This document shows, one piece after another, positions 1,681 through 10,493 of a stretch of DNA of 10,869 bases. The stretch's first letter is position 1. Every line of letters starts with the position of its first letter. The position numbers were made by a program, and so were the translations under genes. The notes beneath the pieces were generated by a model. That model had not been told where the DNA came from, did no database searches, and saw nothing but the letters and a program-made list of their open reading frames with translations. The DNA comes from Candidatus Latescibacterota bacterium (lineage in GTDB: Bacteria > JAAXHH01 > JACQVL01): the NCBI GenBank assembly GCA_016209865.1, contig JACQVL010000328.1, forward strand, positions 1-10,869. The letters are read 5' to 3'.

Positions 1681-3927
1681 ATGCCAAACCGATTCGTTCG
1701 ATGTGCGGGGCTGCTCGGGGTGGTCTTCACGGCGACCGTCACGGCGGGGGCACTCACACATCACGACACCGATGCGCTGGAAACCGCGCGACGCCTGTAT
1801 CCGCCGGAGGTGACGCGCAGCCTGCTCGTCGGCACGATTCCACCGCCTCCGGGGTTCGACCGCGCGATGGCCGAGCGAGTCGGACCAACGCGGCTGGAGG
1901 CGCTGCGCTCAGGAAACGAGGTCCCCAGCGGCGTCGAGAACGATGCGGCTGCGCTCGTTCTGCTGCGGCTGAACATCGATCCCCACCGCCTGAAACCCGT
2001 GAGGGCCTCGCGCGCCACCGTGCAGTTCGTGCGCTCCGTCTATCCGGTCGCCCGCGGAAACACCTCGGGGTTCTTCCGGACCGGTCAGGACGCGGACCTC
2101 ATGCTGTCGGGCATCGATTTCAACAACGCCGGAGGCCCGTTGCTGTTCAACCATCCGATGGGCATCGCCAGCGACGGCACACGGCTCTTGCTGGCCGATA
2201 CCTACAACAACCGCGTGCTGATCTGGAAGACGCTGCCGAACGGGAATGTCCCGCCCGATCTCGTGCTGGGACAGGAAGACTTCATCAGCAACAATCCGGG
2301 GACGGGGCGCGACCAGATGAACTGGCCGGTCACCGTCGCCACGGACGGCCAGCGCATCCTCGTCGCCGACACCGACAATAACCGGATTCTGATCTGGCAT
2401 CACTTCCCCACGAAGCACGGCACGCCGGCCGACCTGGTGCTGGATGGCGAATGGGACGGCGAGCGGAACATCGAGGTGAGCAACGCCCGTTTCCATTGGC
2501 CGTGGGGGGTGTGGACGAACGGCGAAAAGATGGCGGTCAGCAGCACGGGCGGCGGCGGCGTGCTCATCTGGAACCGTTTTCCGTCGCAGGACAACCAACC
2601 CGCCGACCTGGTGCTGCGCGGCGGTGGCAAGCTCGGGACGCCCAGGACGATCACCAGCGACGGCACGCGCCTCATCGTCGGCGACCATAATCCTCGCATG
2701 GGGGGGATCGACAGCGGAACCTTCTTCTGGAAGACCTTTCCCACACGGGATGACCAGCCCTTTGATTTCTATCGCACCGATCCCCAGCGCGGTCCGTGGT
2801 TGCGCGGAACGTTCACGTCCGACGGGAAGCTGGCGCTGTTAGGCAGCACGCTCTTCATCTGGAACGCGTTCCCCGAGGACGAACGCGACGATCCCGACCT
2901 CGCCGTTCGCGGATTCGACTTCCGGCCCGGCGACCACACCGGCGTGGCGGCGGCGGGTGGACGGCTCTACGTGGTAACGGGCAATATCAACAAGGTCCTG
3001 GTGTATAAATCCCTCCCGACCACACCCGACCAGCGGCCCGACTTCGCCATCGGCAGCCCGGATCTGGCGACGAACACGCTCGAGACCCATTTCATCATCA
3101 GCAACCCGGCGCCCGCCTCCAACGGGAAGAGCCTGTTTGTGGCATCCGATTTCGACCGGAAACTGTACGTGTGGAAACAATTGCCAGACCACAGCGGCGC
3201 GCATCCCGATCTCGTCTACACCCTGGACTTCGGGCCGTGGGACATCGCCGTGTGGCAGGAGCGGCTGGTGCTCGCTGGCGGGCGGACGGTGGCGGTGTGG
3301 AACACGCTGCCGCTCGATGGCCACCCGCCGGATGTGATCTTCGACGAGCGCATCGGGAGCGTCCGGCTGGAGGAGATTCGCGGCGTTGCGTTGGACGATC
3401 GTTACTTCTATCTGGCCGACCACCGGGCCGGCAAGGTCTACGTATGGAAAGGGATTCCCTCCGCGGAATCGGAGCCGGTGTGTGCGCTGAATGTGGAGCA
3501 GGCGTGGCGGCTTTCCAGCGACGGCCACTACCTGACGATCGCCACCGCGTTTCGCCACATGGTGGTGATTTATCCGGTCGATGACCTGGAATTCAATCGC
3601 CGCTCGTGGGTTGTCGGGATGCCCGCCGGTGAAGGGCGCCCGGGGCCGCGCATGTTCAACGGCGTGGGCGAGGCGGTCGCCGCCGAGGGACACCTGTTCG
3701 TGGCCGAAGGGTTCAATCGCGTGCATGTCTGGCGTCGCATCGAAGACGCGCTGACCGGCAAATGGGCCGACGTGCTCCTCGGCCAACGCGATGTTGAGAG
3801 CATCCGTCCGGAGATCGGCCGCAACCGGCTGCACACCCCTGCGGCGCTCTCCTTCGATGGCAGGTACCTGTGGGTGGGGGAAACCAAGTTCTCTGAACGC
3901 ATCCTGCGCTTCAGCCCTATGCCCTGA
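1681..3927 (+). CDS. Large exported NHL-type beta-propeller protein, 748 aa
   Basis: The start is fixed: an in-frame TGA lies at 1675-1677, and GAAGGG (1666-1671) precedes ATG 1681. Residues 1-24 form a signal peptide (MPNRFVRCAGLLGVVFTATV then TAGA). Residues 25-150 are a non-repeat region with a Pro-rich stretch (TIPPPPGF). From about residue 155 to the end I count roughly twelve repeats of one plan: 'SDG-x-R-L-x-x-AD', a turn, then a hallmark strand such as NNRVLIWKTLP, NNRILIWHHFP, GGVLIWNRFP, STLFIWNAFP, NKVLVYKSLP, RKLYVWKQLP, RTVAVWNTLP, GKVYVWKGIP and NRVHVWRRIE, often followed by 'P-x-DLVL'. The last unit ends in RILRFSPMP. The repeats are related to NHL repeats, and twelve would fit two six-bladed propellers or one large closed ring. 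Such proteins usually bind ligands or other proteins; I see no catalytic signature. It may be an outer-surface or periplasmic binding protein, possibly unrelated to the sugar genes downstream. Confidence 0.88.
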   Translation: MPNRFVRCAGLLGVVFTATVTAGALTHHDTDALETARRLYPPEVTRSLLVGTIPPPPGFDRAMAERVGPTRLEALRSGNEVPSGVENDAAALVLLRLNIDPHRLKPVRASRATVQFVRSVYPVARGNTSGFFRTGQDADLMLSGIDFNNAGGPLLFNHPMGIASDGTRLLLADTYNNRVLIWKTLPNGNVPPDLVLGQEDFISNNPGTGRDQMNWPVTVATDGQRILVADTDNNRILIWHHFPTKHGTPADLVLDGEWDGERNIEVSNARFHWPWGVWTNGEKMAVSSTGGGGVLIWNRFPSQDNQPADLVLRGGGKLGTPRTITSDGTRLIVGDHNPRMGGIDSGTFFWKTFPTRDDQPFDFYRTDPQRGPWLRGTFTSDGKLALLGSTLFIWNAFPEDERDDPDLAVRGFDFRPGDHTGVAAAGGRLYVVTGNINKVLVYKSLPTTPDQRPDFAIGSPDLATNTLETHFIISNPAPASNGKSLFVASDFDRKLYVWKQLPDHSGAHPDLVYTLDFGPWDIAVWQERLVLAGGRTVAVWNTLPLDGHPPDVIFDERIGSVRLEEIRGVALDDRYFYLADHRAGKVYVWKGIPSAESEPVCALNVEQAWRLSSDGHYLTIATAFRHMVVIYPVDDLEFNRRSWVVGMPAGEGRPGPRMFNGVGEAVAAEGHLFVAEGFNRVHVWRRIEDALTGKWADVLLGQRDVESIRPEIGRNRLHTPAALSFDGRYLWVGETKFSERILRFSPMP

Positions 3928-4183: not shown

Positions 4184-4520
4184 ATGCGCATCATTCGTGT
4201 GATACTCTCCATCGTTAACGTTCCGGAACGGCATTGGTGGTGGTCTGACGATGTGTATGGTCAGCCGCGCCATCAGCGGGCGGAACATGGGATCGCAGAA
4301 GTTGAGACGGACGAGGGATTGACTGGCCTGACGCAGAGGCGCGGAAACGACGCCCGAAGCGCGCATCAGGTATGTAACCGACCGGGTTGAAGCCATTCAC
4401 CGGGTGTTGCCGGACATGGTGGTCAGGCCTGACCTACGCTGGCGGCTTCGAGACGTGTGGGTGGCTCAGGAGCTCGCTCGTCGTCTGCAGGGGTATCCGA
4501 TCGATTGTCTGGAAAGTCCG
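4184..4520 (+). pseudogene. Enolase-superfamily (mandelate racemase/muconate lactonizing) gene relic
   Basis: From ATG 4184 the frame reads MRIIRVILSIVNVPERHWWW, then YGQPRHQ, then AEVETDEGLTGL. This is a classic N-terminal capping domain of the MR/MLE group (usual pattern 'V-x-T-D-E-G-x-x-G-x-G'). The frame then closes at 4390. In the next frame, open from 4332, the sequence from about 4359 to 4520 reads ARIRYVTDRVEAIHRVLP, then DMVVRPDLRWRLRDVWVAQE, then GYPIDCLESP. This matches the middle of the barrel, where 'R-x-D-x-N' and 'D-x-x-x-x-E-x-P' carry metal ligands. About 110 residues normally lie between these parts, so the gene has lost roughly 330 bp and shifted frame near 4335-4360. The ligand region reads RPDLRW rather than the usual DAN pattern. 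The C-terminal third is absent or replaced by the next reading frame. An N-terminal subtype different from the intact enolase at 9324 suggests a separate enzyme was once present. Confidence 0.7.
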
Positions 4521-4521
4521 A

Positions 4522-5376
4522 ATGAGCCTGCCGGAGCACTGGATCGGCCAGTTCGCTGCGCTGGGGGAGCAGCACGAGACGTTCGTCGTGCCGTACCGCT
4601 ATGGGGACTGCGGCTGGTTCGACGACCAGCCGATGTCGCCCATCTACCCGGTGGCGCTCTGGAGCCTGTCGATGCAGCAGGAGGACTGGGATCGAATCGA
4701 GTACATTCGCCGGGAGAGCCAGTACGACTGGAACCGAGTGATTGCGTTCCGGAACAAGGAAGATGCCGGACATGAGCAGCCCTGGGTGCGGTTTCTGGTG
4801 GGGGAGCATCCGAGTTACCCGGACGAGATGCTGCGGACCAGCTACAGCCTGGTCTGCTGGCGCCTGACTCAGGTTCGGGAGGATCAAGAAGCGGCCACGC
4901 ATCACGACGTCCAGCACTGGCAATATCTGAACCCGGTGGTGACCGAAGCGCTGATCCAGCTTACCTTAGGGGCACCCCAATTGATCTATAACGGGGGACT
5001 CCTGATGACCCGTGTCCGGTACGTCGATGCGGACCGCGGGCGGCCCGGTCTACCCCAGGACGTGGCGGCCTTAGTTGAAAAGCTCGAATCGGATCGGACG
5101 GTCCTGCGGCTGGTGAACCTGAGTCCATTCCAGACGAGAGCGGTGATCGTACAGGCTGGGGCATTCGGCGAGCATCGGTTTACCGAAGCCCGCTATACGG
5201 TCCAGACGAGTGCGTATCCGGGTCCGATCGGGACGTACGCGGCGCCGGCACTCAACACGGAGACGAGGACCGTCCCCGTCCACGAGAACCAGCTCCAGGT
5301 CCACCTGCCGCCCGGGCTGGAGATCCTTCTCGACCTGGGCACGGCGCGATTCGTCAATCATCCCTCGTACGTGTAG
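4522..5376 (+). CDS. Conserved protein of unknown function, probably N-terminally truncated
   Basis: From ATG 4522 this gives 284 residues, with only a weak ribosome site (GGAAAG at 4511-4516). The frame is open back to 4387, but that part overlaps the enolase relic in another frame and looks non-native. The body reads like a genuine globular protein. A Trp/Tyr-rich part contains YRYGDCGWF (residues 25-33), SPIYPVALWSLSM (39-51), EYIRRESQYDWNRV (60-73) and KEDAGHEQPWVRFL (79-92). QHWQYLNPVV (131-140) and LGAPQLIYNGG (149-159) follow, and then a strand-rich C-terminal domain beginning at TVLRLVNLSPF (193-203). To my recollection similar proteins occur beside heparinase, Gfo/Idh and enolase genes in Planctomycete-like bacteria, but I know of no assigned activity. 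The conserved Trp, Tyr, His and Glu residues would suit a carbohydrate-active protein; this is inference. It lies 80 bases before the Gfo/Idh gene, so it may be the first gene of the operon. It may be a broken gene. Confidence 0.65.
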   Translation: MSLPEHWIGQFAALGEQHETFVVPYRYGDCGWFDDQPMSPIYPVALWSLSMQQEDWDRIEYIRRESQYDWNRVIAFRNKEDAGHEQPWVRFLVGEHPSYPDEMLRTSYSLVCWRLTQVREDQEAATHHDVQHWQYLNPVVTEALIQLTLGAPQLIYNGGLLMTRVRYVDADRGRPGLPQDVAALVEKLESDRTVLRLVNLSPFQTRAVIVQAGAFGEHRFTEARYTVQTSAYPGPIGTYAAPALNTETRTVPVHENQLQVHLPPGLEILLDLGTARFVNHPSYV

Positions 5377-5456: not shown

Positions 5457-6440
5457 ATGAACCTGGCACTCATCGGTTGCGGTCAAATGGGACGCGGGCA
5501 TGCACGGGCGGCCCACGACCTGGGATTCCCGGTCGTGGCCTTCTGTGACCTCCACCGCGAGGCGGCCACCCAGGCCCGGGATGAGTATGGCTGCGGCTAC
5601 GTCACGACCGATCCGGGCCGGATTCTGCGCGATGAGGAGATCGACCTCGTCATCATCGCCACCCACCACGACGCGCACCACCCGCTCGCTCTCGCCGCCG
5701 CGCAGGCAGGGAAACATATCCTGCTCGAAAAACCCATGTGCCTGACGGTCAGCCAGGCCGTCGAAGTGGCGGAAGCGGTCGACAAAGCCGGCGTCAAGAT
5801 GGCGATCAACTGCAAGTTTCGGATCGCGCCGACGGTCCAGAAGGCCAAGCACCTCATTCCGCATCCGCGGATCAGCCACGGCCAGCTGGCCATGGGCGAT
5901 TCCAGCCAGGGCCGATCCGCCTGGATCTGGGACAAGGACGACGGCGGCGGTCTGCTGATCAGCACCGCCGTCCATACGGTCGACCTGCTCTCCTACCTGA
6001 TGGGGTGCAAGGCGGAGCAGGTGTATGCCGAAGGCCGGCTGTTCGGCACAGCCAAGACCACGATGGAGACGTCCGATGCGCTCGCCGGCACCATCCGGTG
6101 GGACAACGGCGGTGTGTCCACCCTCATCAGCACGGACCAGGGGTTCAACCCGATGGTCTCGAAGTGGTTTCACGAGATCTGGGACGGTGAGCGCAGCGCG
6201 GTCTTCTCCGCCCATACCAGTCGGGTGGACTTTGGCGGATGTGAGATCGCCTACCTGGATGTCCGGGAACTGCCTGAGGACGAGCAACGCCGGGCGTCGA
6301 TGCTACTGAACCTGATCGACGCCATCCGCGAAGAGACGCGCCCGCTCTGTGACCAGTGGGAGGGCGTGCAGACGGTGGCCATCTGCAACGCGCTGGAGGC
6401 GGCGGCGCGGACCGGGAGACCGCAGCGGGTGTGGCGGTAG
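5457..6440 (+). CDS. Gfo/Idh/MocA-family oxidoreductase, 327 aa
   Basis: This is an NAD(P)-dependent dehydrogenase or redox-cycling enzyme acting on sugars or inositols in the cytoplasm. The N-terminal Rossmann fold begins MNLALIGCGQMGRGHARAA, with GCGQMG at residues 7-12. The strand LVIIATHHDAHHP (64-76) leads to LLEKPM, and Lys92 of EKP (91-93) is the conserved family lysine. The C-terminal alpha/beta domain carries GGGLLISTAVHTVDLL (163-178), where His173 and Asp176 occupy the usual 'GG-x-x-x-D-x-x-x-H-x-x-D' place; the first Asp of that pattern is replaced by Ser or Thr. The length is normal for the family. AAGGGGGT (5444-5451) is the ribosome site five bases before the ATG. The TIM-barrel gene follows 48 bases after the stop. 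Substrate cannot be read from sequence; the neighbourhood suggests a uronate-derived sugar or keto acid. Confidence 0.92.
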   Translation: MNLALIGCGQMGRGHARAAHDLGFPVVAFCDLHREAATQARDEYGCGYVTTDPGRILRDEEIDLVIIATHHDAHHPLALAAAQAGKHILLEKPMCLTVSQAVEVAEAVDKAGVKMAINCKFRIAPTVQKAKHLIPHPRISHGQLAMGDSSQGRSAWIWDKDDGGGLLISTAVHTVDLLSYLMGCKAEQVYAEGRLFGTAKTTMETSDALAGTIRWDNGGVSTLISTDQGFNPMVSKWFHEIWDGERSAVFSAHTSRVDFGGCEIAYLDVRELPEDEQRRASMLLNLIDAIREETRPLCDQWEGVQTVAICNALEAAARTGRPQRVWR

Positions 6441-6488
6441 TCACGATGTTACGCACGAGCCGAGGGGCCTGAACAGGGGAGGCTCACG

Positions 6489-7352
6489 ATGAGAGTAGCC
6501 CTCTCGGTCCGGATTGCCGAATCACCGGGCTCGAAGGAGCAGACGACCCGCACCCTGGCGCAGCTTGCGGCACTGGCCGCAGGCATCGGCTATCAGGCGG
6601 TGTGCATGCGCGCGTCACAGGTGGGGATTCAGACGCCTCTACAGGACATCACGGCGGCCCGACACACGGTGCAGGGCTATGGCTTGACGGTGTCCATGGT
6701 GACCGGCGATGTGGCGATCCCGCTCAACAACGACCGGGCGCCGGAGGCGCTGCGACACATCACCCCGTATCTCGACCTGGCCGCGTTGTTAGAGTCGGAT
6801 CTGATTCGGGTGGGAATGAAGCACGACACGGAGATCGTCTGGGCGCAGCGGGCGGCGGATGAGGCTCGGGAACGCGGCATTCGACTCGCCCATCAGTCAC
6901 ATACGCTGAGTCTGTTCGAGACCGTCGCGGGCTCGCTCGACGTCCTCAGGCGCATCAACCGTCCCAACTTCGGGCTCATCTACGAACCGGCGAACCTGGA
7001 CCTGTGTGGACAGGATTATGGCCCGGAGACCATCACACGGTTCGAGCCCTGGCTGTTCAACGTCTACCTCCAGAATCATCGCAAAACGCCGGACGGCCGT
7101 GTCACGCTCGCCACCTGGAGCCAGGGGGCCGTGTCCTACGACCCGATCCGGCTCCAGGACTCCGGGGGCCTCGACTTCCCGATGATCCTGGACACGCTCG
7201 ACCGCATCGGGTACACCGGGTATGTCACCGTGCATCAGGCGTTCACGGAGCTAATGGAGCCGGAAGACGCCGCCCGGCAGAGTTATGACCATCTGACGCG
7301 GATCGGGCATGTTGAACCTCTCAAAGGCGGTGGTCAGGGACACCAAGCCTGA
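6489..7352 (+). CDS. Sugar phosphate isomerase/epimerase-like TIM barrel (xylose isomerase-like), 287 aa
   Basis: AGGGGAGG (6475-6482) precedes the ATG by six bases. The protein shows the AP-endonuclease-2/xylose isomerase-like barrel: GIGYQAVCMRA (residues 32-42), GLTVSMVTGD (65-74), SDLIRVGMK (103-111), GIRLAHQSH (130-138), NFGLIYEPANL (160-170), LFNVYLQNHR (189-198) and a final GGLDFPMILDTLDRIGYTGY (226-245) followed by VTVHQAF. The order and spacing fit the family. The four positions that usually bind the divalent metal (Glu, Asp, His, Glu) appear here as His135/Gln136, Glu166, Tyr193 (with His197 nearby) and His249, so metal use may differ or be absent. I recall a subgroup with the same LQNHR and VTVHQAF motifs, so this is probably a real subfamily rather than decay. 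The likely role is isomerisation or epimerisation of a keto sugar produced by the neighbouring Gfo/Idh enzyme. A 115-base gap follows. Confidence 0.87.
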   Translation: MRVALSVRIAESPGSKEQTTRTLAQLAALAAGIGYQAVCMRASQVGIQTPLQDITAARHTVQGYGLTVSMVTGDVAIPLNNDRAPEALRHITPYLDLAALLESDLIRVGMKHDTEIVWAQRAADEARERGIRLAHQSHTLSLFETVAGSLDVLRRINRPNFGLIYEPANLDLCGQDYGPETITRFEPWLFNVYLQNHRKTPDGRVTLATWSQGAVSYDPIRLQDSGGLDFPMILDTLDRIGYTGYVTVHQAFTELMEPEDAARQSYDHLTRIGHVEPLKGGGQGHQA

Positions 7353-7467
7353 TCGGGTGCTGTGGCAGCGGTGTGGAATGGAGCACACGATTCTGAGTGA
7401 AGTGCGAACATGACGGGGAGTGTCGCCGTTTCCGGATAGCGCCCCGCTGACGCATTAGGAGGCGCTC

Positions 7468-9306
7468 ATGTCAACGCCGATGTCCGATTTGCGAAGCCTG
7501 CCTCTCAACCAATTCCAGCGTCTGCGCGATTCCGGGACCTCGCTCGTCCCCGAACTGGAAGCGGCCCGCCTCAACCGTCAGGCCCTGTGTGTCGCTCCCC
7601 AGACGCAGGTCGTACTCGCCCAGACTCAGCCCCTCATGGACACCCTCGATCAGATTCCCCAGACTTCCTACACCCTCTACCGCCACTTCATGCACACCGG
7701 CGACCGAGCTGGCTACGAGACCCCGTATTTCCTCAAACGCGCCCGGCTGGCCGCTGCCAGCCTGCGGCTGTTCCTGGGGCTGGAGACGGCATACGGTGCC
7801 ATGCTCCGGGATCTCGTACACGACTATGTGTGGGCCATCTGCGAGGAGAGTACCTGGGTTCTTCCTGCGCACGAATCTGTCGCCATCGACCTCTTTGCCG
7901 CTGAGACGGGGTTCATGCTGGCTGAGACCCTCTGTCTCCTCGGTCCCACCCTCGAGACTGAAATTCGCCACCGGGTGCGTCAGGAGATCGAGCATCGGAT
8001 TTTCACCCCCTACCTGCGCCTCGCGCCGGTATTCTGGTGGCAGAAGGGCCACAACAACTGGAATGGCGTCTGTAACAGCGCGATCGCCGCGACGTTTCTC
8101 CTCGTGGAACCGGAGCCGGGACGGAGGGCCCACGCGCTCGAGCTCGCCTTGGCCGGGCTGCAGGTGTTTCTCGACACGGCCTTCGAGGCGGACGGGAGTT
8201 CGACCGAGGGGGTGGCCTACTGGCATTACGGGCTGATGAACGTCGTCGTCCTGGCCGAAATGCTGCGAGCCTGTAGCGGGGGGACGATCGACCTGCTCGC
8301 CTCGACGCGAATGCGCCAGATTGCCGCCTACCCGGCCAAGTTGCACCTCTCCGGGTCGTCGTTTGCGAGCTTCTCGGACTGCGATGAGACCATCCACTTC
8401 CATCCGGGCATCCTCACCAGGCTGGCCGACCGCACGGGGGAGCGGTCGTTACTGGCCCTCCTGGCCCCGCCTGCGGAACCCGCCACGGATTGGCGGCTGC
8501 CGATGATGCTGCGGACGCTCCTCTGGTGGGATGGTCGTCAACCGGACGCGATCCCGGTGGAGGATGCCGTGCTGCCAGCCGGCGGGGTGGCTCGCCTCGT
8601 CGGGTGCACCCCGGCCGGGAGGCCGGTCGTCCTGGCCATCAAGGCAGGCCACAACGGGGAGAACCACAATCAGAACGATGTCGGAAGCTTTCTGGTGCAT
8701 GTGGGCGGCGAGACGCTGCTCACCGATCCGGGCCGGGGGCTGTACACGCGGGAGTACTTCAGTGACCGGCGGTACGAGAACCTCTTTGCCAATTCGTACG
8801 GCCACAGCGTCCCGCGCATCAACGGTCAGGTACAAGGCACGGGCCGGTCGTTCGCCGGTGAGTTGTTCGGGATTGAACAGGAAACCGGGGCCAAACGGGC
8901 CGTCGTGGAGTTCGCCCGGGCGTATCCAGTGACGGAGCTGACGAGTGCCCGGCGCGAGCTGTGGCTGGCCATCGATGGGGTACAGACCGGCGTGGTGTGG
9001 CTGCACGATCGGTTCCGCTTCACCGGCCAGCCGGGCGTGGTGGAAGAAGCGTTGATCACCTGGCAGGAGGTCGAGGTGGCGGGAGAGACGGCGCTGATTC
9101 ACGGCCCGCGTCAGACCCTACGCCTGGTGATTGAGTCACCCGCCGGGGTCTCCTTCGCGCTGGAACGCTTCGAGGAGCAGAGCCGGACCAATGGCAAATC
9201 GGCCATCCTCAAGCGCCTCAACATCGCGCTGCCGGCGGCACAGGACCTGCAGGTCAGGGTACGCATGGAGGTGGTGGACTCAGCGAGCGCAGCCCCAGGA
9301 GTCTGA
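7468..9306 (+). CDS. Heparinase II/III-family protein (polysaccharide lyase-like), 612 aa
   Basis: A textbook ribosome site, TTAGGAGG (7455-7462), stands five bases before the ATG. The N-terminal half is helical, as in an alpha/alpha toroid. It includes NNWNGVCNSAIAA (196-208) and DGSSTEGVAYWHYGL (242-256), which hold the Asn, Glu, Tyr and His residues typical of the lyase cleft (Tyr251, His253). The C-terminal half is a beta sandwich with GHNGENHNQNDVGSF (394-408), LLTDPGRGLY (417-426) and YGHSVPRING (444-453), matching the heparinase II/III-like domain, in which a His from this part joins catalysis. The family cleaves acidic polysaccharides (heparin, alginate and similar) by beta-elimination, leaving unsaturated uronates. 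No signal peptide is present (the start is MSTPMSDLRSLPLNQ), so a cytoplasmic oligosaccharide lyase is likely. The enolase follows after 17 bases, which implies co-transcription. The true substrate is unknown. Confidence 0.9.
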   Translation: MSTPMSDLRSLPLNQFQRLRDSGTSLVPELEAARLNRQALCVAPQTQVVLAQTQPLMDTLDQIPQTSYTLYRHFMHTGDRAGYETPYFLKRARLAAASLRLFLGLETAYGAMLRDLVHDYVWAICEESTWVLPAHESVAIDLFAAETGFMLAETLCLLGPTLETEIRHRVRQEIEHRIFTPYLRLAPVFWWQKGHNNWNGVCNSAIAATFLLVEPEPGRRAHALELALAGLQVFLDTAFEADGSSTEGVAYWHYGLMNVVVLAEMLRACSGGTIDLLASTRMRQIAAYPAKLHLSGSSFASFSDCDETIHFHPGILTRLADRTGERSLLALLAPPAEPATDWRLPMMLRTLLWWDGRQPDAIPVEDAVLPAGGVARLVGCTPAGRPVVLAIKAGHNGENHNQNDVGSFLVHVGGETLLTDPGRGLYTREYFSDRRYENLFANSYGHSVPRINGQVQGTGRSFAGELFGIEQETGAKRAVVEFARAYPVTELTSARRELWLAIDGVQTGVVWLHDRFRFTGQPGVVEEALITWQEVEVAGETALIHGPRQTLRLVIESPAGVSFALERFEEQSRTNGKSAILKRLNIALPAAQDLQVRVRMEVVDSASAAPGV

Positions 9307-9323
9307 TACCCAACGGAGGGCGT

Positions 9324-10493
9324 ATGCGGATTGACGCGATTCGTCTGGATATCGTCGAGAGCGACCCGATCGTGCCCGAGTGGCGACCGTTGCGGACGAT
9401 GCGCGAGTACCCCGGGACACGCGCTGTCCGCTTCGGCCATCAGCCCTACGACGGGCCCACGCTGCAACTCGGCCCCCGGCCCGTCTACCTCTGCCTCCTG
9501 CGGATTCAGACCGACGCCAATCTCGAAACGTGCGGCTTCTTGACCGGCAGTTGGGGCCGGGAACAGGCGGAGTGGGAGGCGCAGACGTTCAAGGTGCAAT
9601 GGGAGGCCGAGCTGGTCGGCGCTGAGGCGCTCGACCGGGAGTACCTGTGGCACAAACTCTGGATGGCCCGCCGGTATTTTCACCTGCCGTCCACCGCGCC
9701 CCTGGCCCTGATCGACGAACTACTCTGGGACCTGGCCGGCCTGTACGCCCACCTCCCGGTGCACAAACTCCTCGGCGGGTTTCGAGACCGCGTCCCGGCC
9801 TACCTCACGGAGACCGCCGTGTCGTATGACGACACCCTCCAGGCCGCTGAACGAGCCAACCGCGAAGGATATAAGGGATTCAAAGATCATGCGATGCTCG
9901 GAGTCGCCACCAACATCGCCCTGGCCAAAGACCTCCGGGCGCTGGTGGGGGATGATCTGGCGTTGATGCACGACCCGGTCCAGCAGTACAGCCTCGACGA
10001 CGCGATCATCGTCGGACAGGCGTTGGAACGGTTCGGCTACCTCTGGATCGAGGAACCGCTCCAGGAATTCGACATTCGTGGATTGAAACGCCTCTCGGAG
10101 GCGCTGGATTTGCCGGTGATGGCGTTAGAGTCGCTCCCCGGCAACCCGTACCTGGCCGTCCCGTACCTGACGGCCGGCGCGATCGACATCGTCCGCCAGA
10201 CCGGGCTGGGGATTACGGGTCAGATGAAGCTGGCCAACCTGGCCCAGATGTTCGGACTCAACTGCCATGGCGGCAACCCGCACGTGGTCGCCGCGATTCG
10301 GAATGACGACTGGTGGGAGGTCCCGGCCTGGACGTGGCGGCCGGCGGACCGGGTCGTCACCACGGCGGCGGCCTCGTTGATCCGCGACACGACGACCGTC
10401 CGGGACGGATACATGTACGTGCCGCAGACTTCGGGGCTGGGACGGGAGATCGAGTGGGCGGAGATTGAAGCCCGGACTGTGGCCACGTTTTAG
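9324..10493 (+). CDS. Enolase-superfamily enzyme, mandelate racemase type (probable acid-sugar dehydratase), 389 aa
   Basis: CGGAGGG (9314-9320) precedes ATG 9324. The length is typical. The N-terminal cap covers about residues 1-125, then the barrel follows. Visible key residues: Lys184 and Lys187 in EGYKGFKDHA (a KxxK arrangement at the second-strand base position); metal ligands Asp217 (ALMHDPVQQ), Glu243 or 244 (YLWIEEP) and Glu269 (VMALESLPG); and the His-Asp dyad, Asp288 (GAIDIVRQTGLG) with His315 (LNCHGGNPH). This set marks the MR subgroup, whose members abstract the proton alpha to a carboxylate and often dehydrate aldonates or uronate-derived acids to 2-keto-3-deoxy acids. Adjacent to a lyase, a TIM-barrel isomerase and a Gfo/Idh dehydrogenase, a dehydratase role is the best guess. 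The cap sequence (MREYPGTRAVRFG, then TCGFLTGSWG) is unlike that of common characterised members, so the substrate cannot be assigned. It is the last intact gene of the set. Confidence 0.92.
   Translation: MRIDAIRLDIVESDPIVPEWRPLRTMREYPGTRAVRFGHQPYDGPTLQLGPRPVYLCLLRIQTDANLETCGFLTGSWGREQAEWEAQTFKVQWEAELVGAEALDREYLWHKLWMARRYFHLPSTAPLALIDELLWDLAGLYAHLPVHKLLGGFRDRVPAYLTETAVSYDDTLQAAERANREGYKGFKDHAMLGVATNIALAKDLRALVGDDLALMHDPVQQYSLDDAIIVGQALERFGYLWIEEPLQEFDIRGLKRLSEALDLPVMALESLPGNPYLAVPYLTAGAIDIVRQTGLGITGQMKLANLAQMFGLNCHGGNPHVVAAIRNDDWWEVPAWTWRPADRVVTTAAASLIRDTTTVRDGYMYVPQTSGLGREIEWAEIEARTVATF

Follow-up and report, generated by a model that had tools for sequence, protein, structure and literature searches.

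The four genes at positions 5457-10493 of the window encode enzymes of known kinds, which are probably transcribed together, and they are more likely common gene families that were brought together locally than a conserved pathway of a new type. The reading that we prefer, tentatively and at a little less than an even chance, is that of a sugar-acid cluster composed of ordinary kinds of enzymes, which was assembled locally in this lineage around a PL33-like lyase.

The window, i.e., the whole stretch of DNA analysed here, is the complete contig C260 (10,869 bases); the draft genome to which it belongs comprises 356 contigs and 3.75 Mb, and was compared with 15 relatives (in total, 16 genomes of the phylum, from a single order). 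The cluster consists of four open and intact reading frames, all on the forward strand, which encode a Gfo/Idh/MocA NAD(P)-dependent oxidoreductase (5457-6440, 327 aa; Pfam GFO_IDH_MocA, 2e-25; EKP motif), a TIM barrel of the AP_endonuc_2 type (6489-7352, 287 aa; PF01261, 4.5e-13), a PL33-like lyase of the heparinase II/III type (7468-9306, 612 aa; Hepar_II_III_C, 7e-8), and an MR-group member of the enolase superfamily (9324-10493, 389 aa; MR_MLE_C, 4e-33). In gene order, the intergenic gaps measure 48, 115, and 17 bases. Each ATG is preceded by a stretch that is rich in purines and resembles a Shine-Dalgarno sequence. In addition, the window contains 11 stop-to-stop frames with 280 or more codons, as compared to a mean of 0.25 in shuffled sequences. 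A previous sequence-only reading had described four closely spaced intact genes for lyase, dehydrogenase, isomerase/epimerase-like, and dehydratase steps; the spacing and intactness are borne out by these results, and the Pfam matches agree with the four enzyme classes.

Both ends of the window are contig ends, so the wider locus is unreadable, and no transporter or regulator is visible because the contig stops 376 bases after the enolase gene. Transporter, sulfatase, and KdgK/KdgA-type genes, which had been noted as missing, are indeed absent from the contig, but their absence says little for a contig of only 10.9 kb, and the lack of transporters and of an aldolase or kinase is explained by the contig ends. 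The proposed check for an aldolase and a kinase likewise gave none on the contig, whereas six DHDPS-family and ten PfkB genes were found elsewhere in the genome. The SDR reported upstream of the cluster is present, but as a fragment (1-528) truncated by the contig start, approximately 5 kb away. A 748-aa NHL-repeat (beta-propeller) protein is encoded at 1681-3927.

For the lyase, PL33 was the first match by sequence among the solved structures (E 2e-30). The predicted structure (pLDDT 91) has the (alpha/alpha)6 toroid and the two-sheet beta domain, with the PL33 structures matching best: the top Foldseek and VIA matches were all PL33, with a Z score of 33.4 versus 30.4 for the next family (BtPL33 and BcPL33, 33; GAGase II, 30; Agrobacterium alginate lyase, 28). 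The PL33 residues found to be catalytic or essential, N238, Y291, and H444 (PMC11848413), align with N197, Y251, and H400 of the window lyase. These three residues and W198 are invariant in all 32 aligned family sequences, and all but one of the 32 also have R80 and H135. The window lyase also has a Val at the position of W242, which marks the subfamily PL33_2 (PMC11848413). In the tree, in which a PL33_1 fragment was the only reference for CAZy PL33, the window lyase falls in a separate clade with three Chloroflexota sequences of 58-62% identity (support 100/100). No obvious signal peptide was seen when the N-terminus was read by eye. The lyase step of the previous reading is supported, with a PL33-like fold in the model and the catalytic Asn/Tyr/His in the alignment; the active site is well supported, and the protein is very likely a functional beta-eliminase of uronate-containing glycans.

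The window-type lyase was found in none of the 15 phylum relatives. Since this lyase occurs in one genome of the phylum and otherwise in Chloroflexota, lateral transfer of the gene is suggested; however, the base composition is not distinctive, and three of the relatives have heparinase-domain proteins of other kinds. These results extend the PL33-like lyases, with the catalytic set intact, to a clade whose members come from Chloroflexota and from a small phylum that is mostly uncultured.

Hyaluronan, chondroitin, heparosan, and gellan are substrates of PL33 enzymes (PMC11848413), which would be consistent with a known uronate route, of the alginate, heparin, ulvan, or gellan type, with its remaining genes past the contig ends. 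Such a route would also agree with a Hydrogenedentota lyase of 43% identity, which lies near a putative glucuronate isomerase gene (assigned by eye), and with the KDG-type aldolase and kinase families in the genome. However, none of the known partners of these routes is visible on the contig, and we know of no characterised route in which a PL33-like lyase is combined with such an enolase and TIM barrel. We consider a known route unlikely.

For the enolase, the motifs K187-D-H189, HDP, EEP, ES, and HGG were observed, and the best match among the solved structures was Agrobacterium 1rvk/4hcd. Alignment with 1rvk, which covers residues 96-382 only, and with the phylum homologues placed the three carboxylate metal ligands and the strand-2 Lys. 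Regarding the His-Asp dyad of mandelate racemase, the His of the HG motif aligns, whereas the Asp is unplaceable, with deletions relative to 1rvk. With its metal ligands and K-x-H motif, the protein looks like an acid-sugar dehydratase, as had been proposed, and this function is probable on the aligned residues. Homologues of 41-45% identity were found in 13 of the 15 relatives, and the three that were aligned share these motifs; none of the phylum neighbourhoods that were read had the window context. The window genome has 34 MR_MLE_C matches, including the window enolase, and 33-56 were found per genome across the phylum. Among 12 lyase-bearing genomes searched, two had enolase homologues at E<=1e-20 (33-37% identical).

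For the TIM barrel, the Pfam class agrees with the isomerase/epimerase-like barrel of the previous reading, but the canonical E-D-H-E metal tetrad is replaced by Q136, E166, Y193, and H249, which makes the isomerase label doubtful. The same four residues are invariant in the seven phylum relatives aligned, whereas the haloarchaeal homologues keep the canonical ones. The protein may thus not be a metal-dependent isomerase; if this subfamily works without the canonical metal site, it would be of separate biochemical interest. Across the phylum subfamily (6489-7352 and L143-L150), H135, Q136, H138, E166, H197, and H249 are invariant. A phylum-only profile gave one weak match among the solved structures (E 0.0019), and a single-sequence structure prediction (pLDDT 32) was discarded. 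A TIM barrel of 64-69% identity, single-copy at such identity, was found in 14 of the 15 relatives. In six of the eight relatives read, its neighbours by eye included a NUDIX hydrolase, cytochrome oxidase subunit III, or both, and neither a lyase nor a window-type Gfo or enolase gene lay beside it in any of the eight.

For the Gfo/Idh/MocA oxidoreductase, no match at E<=1e-30 was found in the 15 relatives. A paralogue of 39% identity lies on contig C282 of the same genome, and tblastn against a plasmid collection gave generic matches, about 27-30% identical among the matches listed.

The unknown protein that had been noted upstream matches no Pfam model, but is encoded by a truncated gene copy outside the intact cluster (4387-5376, forward strand), which retains about 284 C-terminal residues (4522-5376) of a family of ~639-aa proteins. 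Just upstream of it is a frameshifted and internally deleted remnant of an MR-group enolase (4187-4540, forward strand), recognised from motifs by eye and a sub-threshold MR_MLE_C match (E 0.06). The genome also has a full-length 639-aa paralogue, 74% identical to the window fragment, on contig C78 (G000:C78, L200:9487-11403), which also carries an enolase and a DHDPS-family gene. The family (e.g., L029:8669-10588) occurs in all 16 genomes of the phylum, and also in haloarchaea (including their plasmids), actinomycetes, and Asticcacaulis; its members are often close to sugar-acid genes. A profile search gave no credible solved relative, and the sole fold hint for the family is a sub-threshold match to glucuronyl C5-epimerase.

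A search of other genomes for the exact gene set, which the sequence-only reading had proposed as a check, recovered the set nowhere among the genomes examined; lack of conservation was one of the outcomes that this reading had named as refuting it. The Gfo, TIM-barrel, and enolase genes occurred together at none of 74 lyase loci. Any partner class lay within 6 kb at 14 of these 74 loci, in which the lyase frame was located (TIM barrel at nine, Gfo at four, and MR enolase at three, with Gfo and TIM barrel both present at two). In the stretches read at the three closest (58-62%) Chloroflexota lyase loci, one of which (L014) extends 170 bases upstream only, none of the three partners was found. 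These results argue against the set as a conserved, dedicated pathway. An undescribed pathway dedicated to a particular acidic oligosaccharide might still occur in unsampled relatives: the enolase and TIM-barrel subfamilies are divergent, the lyase active site is intact, and the window genome is the sole member of its own family among the genomes compared. However, the lack of conservation across the relatives and the lyase loci, together with the conservation of the TIM barrel without the other genes, makes such a pathway improbable. An undescribed uronate route in which a PL33-like lyase of an uncharacterised clade acts together with an enolase of a new subgroup and with a TIM barrel lacking the metal ligands and using different chemistry is, in our estimate, similarly far from probable.

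Partial look-alikes of the cluster were observed. In Chloroflexi 54-19, the order is ABC transporter, MR enolase, lyase (a distant homologue of the window lyase), amidohydrolase, aldo/keto reductase, and an intact copy of the 639-aa protein. On Haloterrigena plasmids, a stretch of about 7 kb holds a lyase, a TIM barrel, and an MR enolase that is of a different type; a rhamnose mutarotase is also present. In the relative G014 (contig C42; L204:6839-12407), a 639-aa family gene, two Gfo genes, and an enolase follow one another in a window-like order, with no TIM barrel or lyase; this was the only phylum enolase neighbourhood read that resembled the window.

The four genes might instead be chance neighbours, i.e., unrelated paralogues from abundant or old families that lie in a decaying region and share no pathway. 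This would be consistent with the many enolase-superfamily genes per genome, with the TIM barrel as a separate single-copy gene in the relatives, with the closest lyases lacking the partners, and with the truncated genes in the region. However, the four genes lie on the same strand with small gaps and ribosome-binding sites, all belong to carbohydrate-enzyme families, and partial look-alike clusters exist. We regard chance as a rather unlikely explanation, to be taken more seriously than either a known or a dedicated route.

The preferred reading, a locally assembled sugar-acid cluster, is supported by the gene spacing, the ribosome-binding sites, the intact lyase residues, the metal ligands and K-x-H motif of the enolase, the partial look-alikes, and the DHDPS-family and PfkB genes in the genome; the lack of conservation of the gene set counts against it. 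According to this reading, the four genes would form one transcription unit, assembled in the window lineage, that serves to salvage a sugar acid or an oligosaccharide containing uronic acid. As in PL33, cleavage by the lyase would proceed by beta-elimination at a 4-linked uronate, with His400 activating Tyr251, Tyr251 taking the C5 proton, and Asn197 holding the carboxylate. The Gfo/Idh/MocA protein would catalyse an oxidation or reduction between the lyase and enolase steps. Dehydration of an acid sugar by the enolase would yield a 2-keto-3-deoxy acid, which could be split by aldolases encoded elsewhere in the genome. The TIM-barrel gene is old in the phylum and is now located within the unit. 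The lyase and enolase steps do not chain obviously, because the unsaturated uronate produced by a lyase is not a usual substrate for an MR dehydratase. More generally, a plausible four-gene "pathway" from a single contig can be a local arrangement.

Compared with known systems, the TIM barrel resembles the AP_endonuc_2 sugar isomerases and epimerases (TM0416 and IolE) in its above-cut-off match to PF01261, but differs from them in the replaced metal tetrad. The enolase shares with Agrobacterium 1rvk/4hcd/4mmw, described as a glucarate or galactarate dehydratase, the MR-group barrel, the K-x-H of the second strand, the D/E/E metal ligands, and the HG of the seventh strand, whereas its cap is different and a few residues are deleted near the sixth and seventh strands. 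SAR202 genomes carry dozens of divergent MR-group enolases each, for which parallel non-phosphorylative sugar-acid routes have been proposed (PMC10444878, PMC6946804). The phylum shares this expansion, but it is another lineage, with 33-56 copies per genome, as compared to 80 copies in cultured SAR202 strains. Finally, the window lyase is only 20-22% identical to the solved PL33 members (BtPL33HA and BcPL33HA; PDB 8r6z-8r75; PMC11848413) and belongs to a separate clade with Chloroflexota sequences, but it matches them in the whole-length fold (558-576 residues aligned, Z 33), the catalytic Asn/Tyr/His, and the Arg and His of the subsites, and it has the Val typical of PL33_2.
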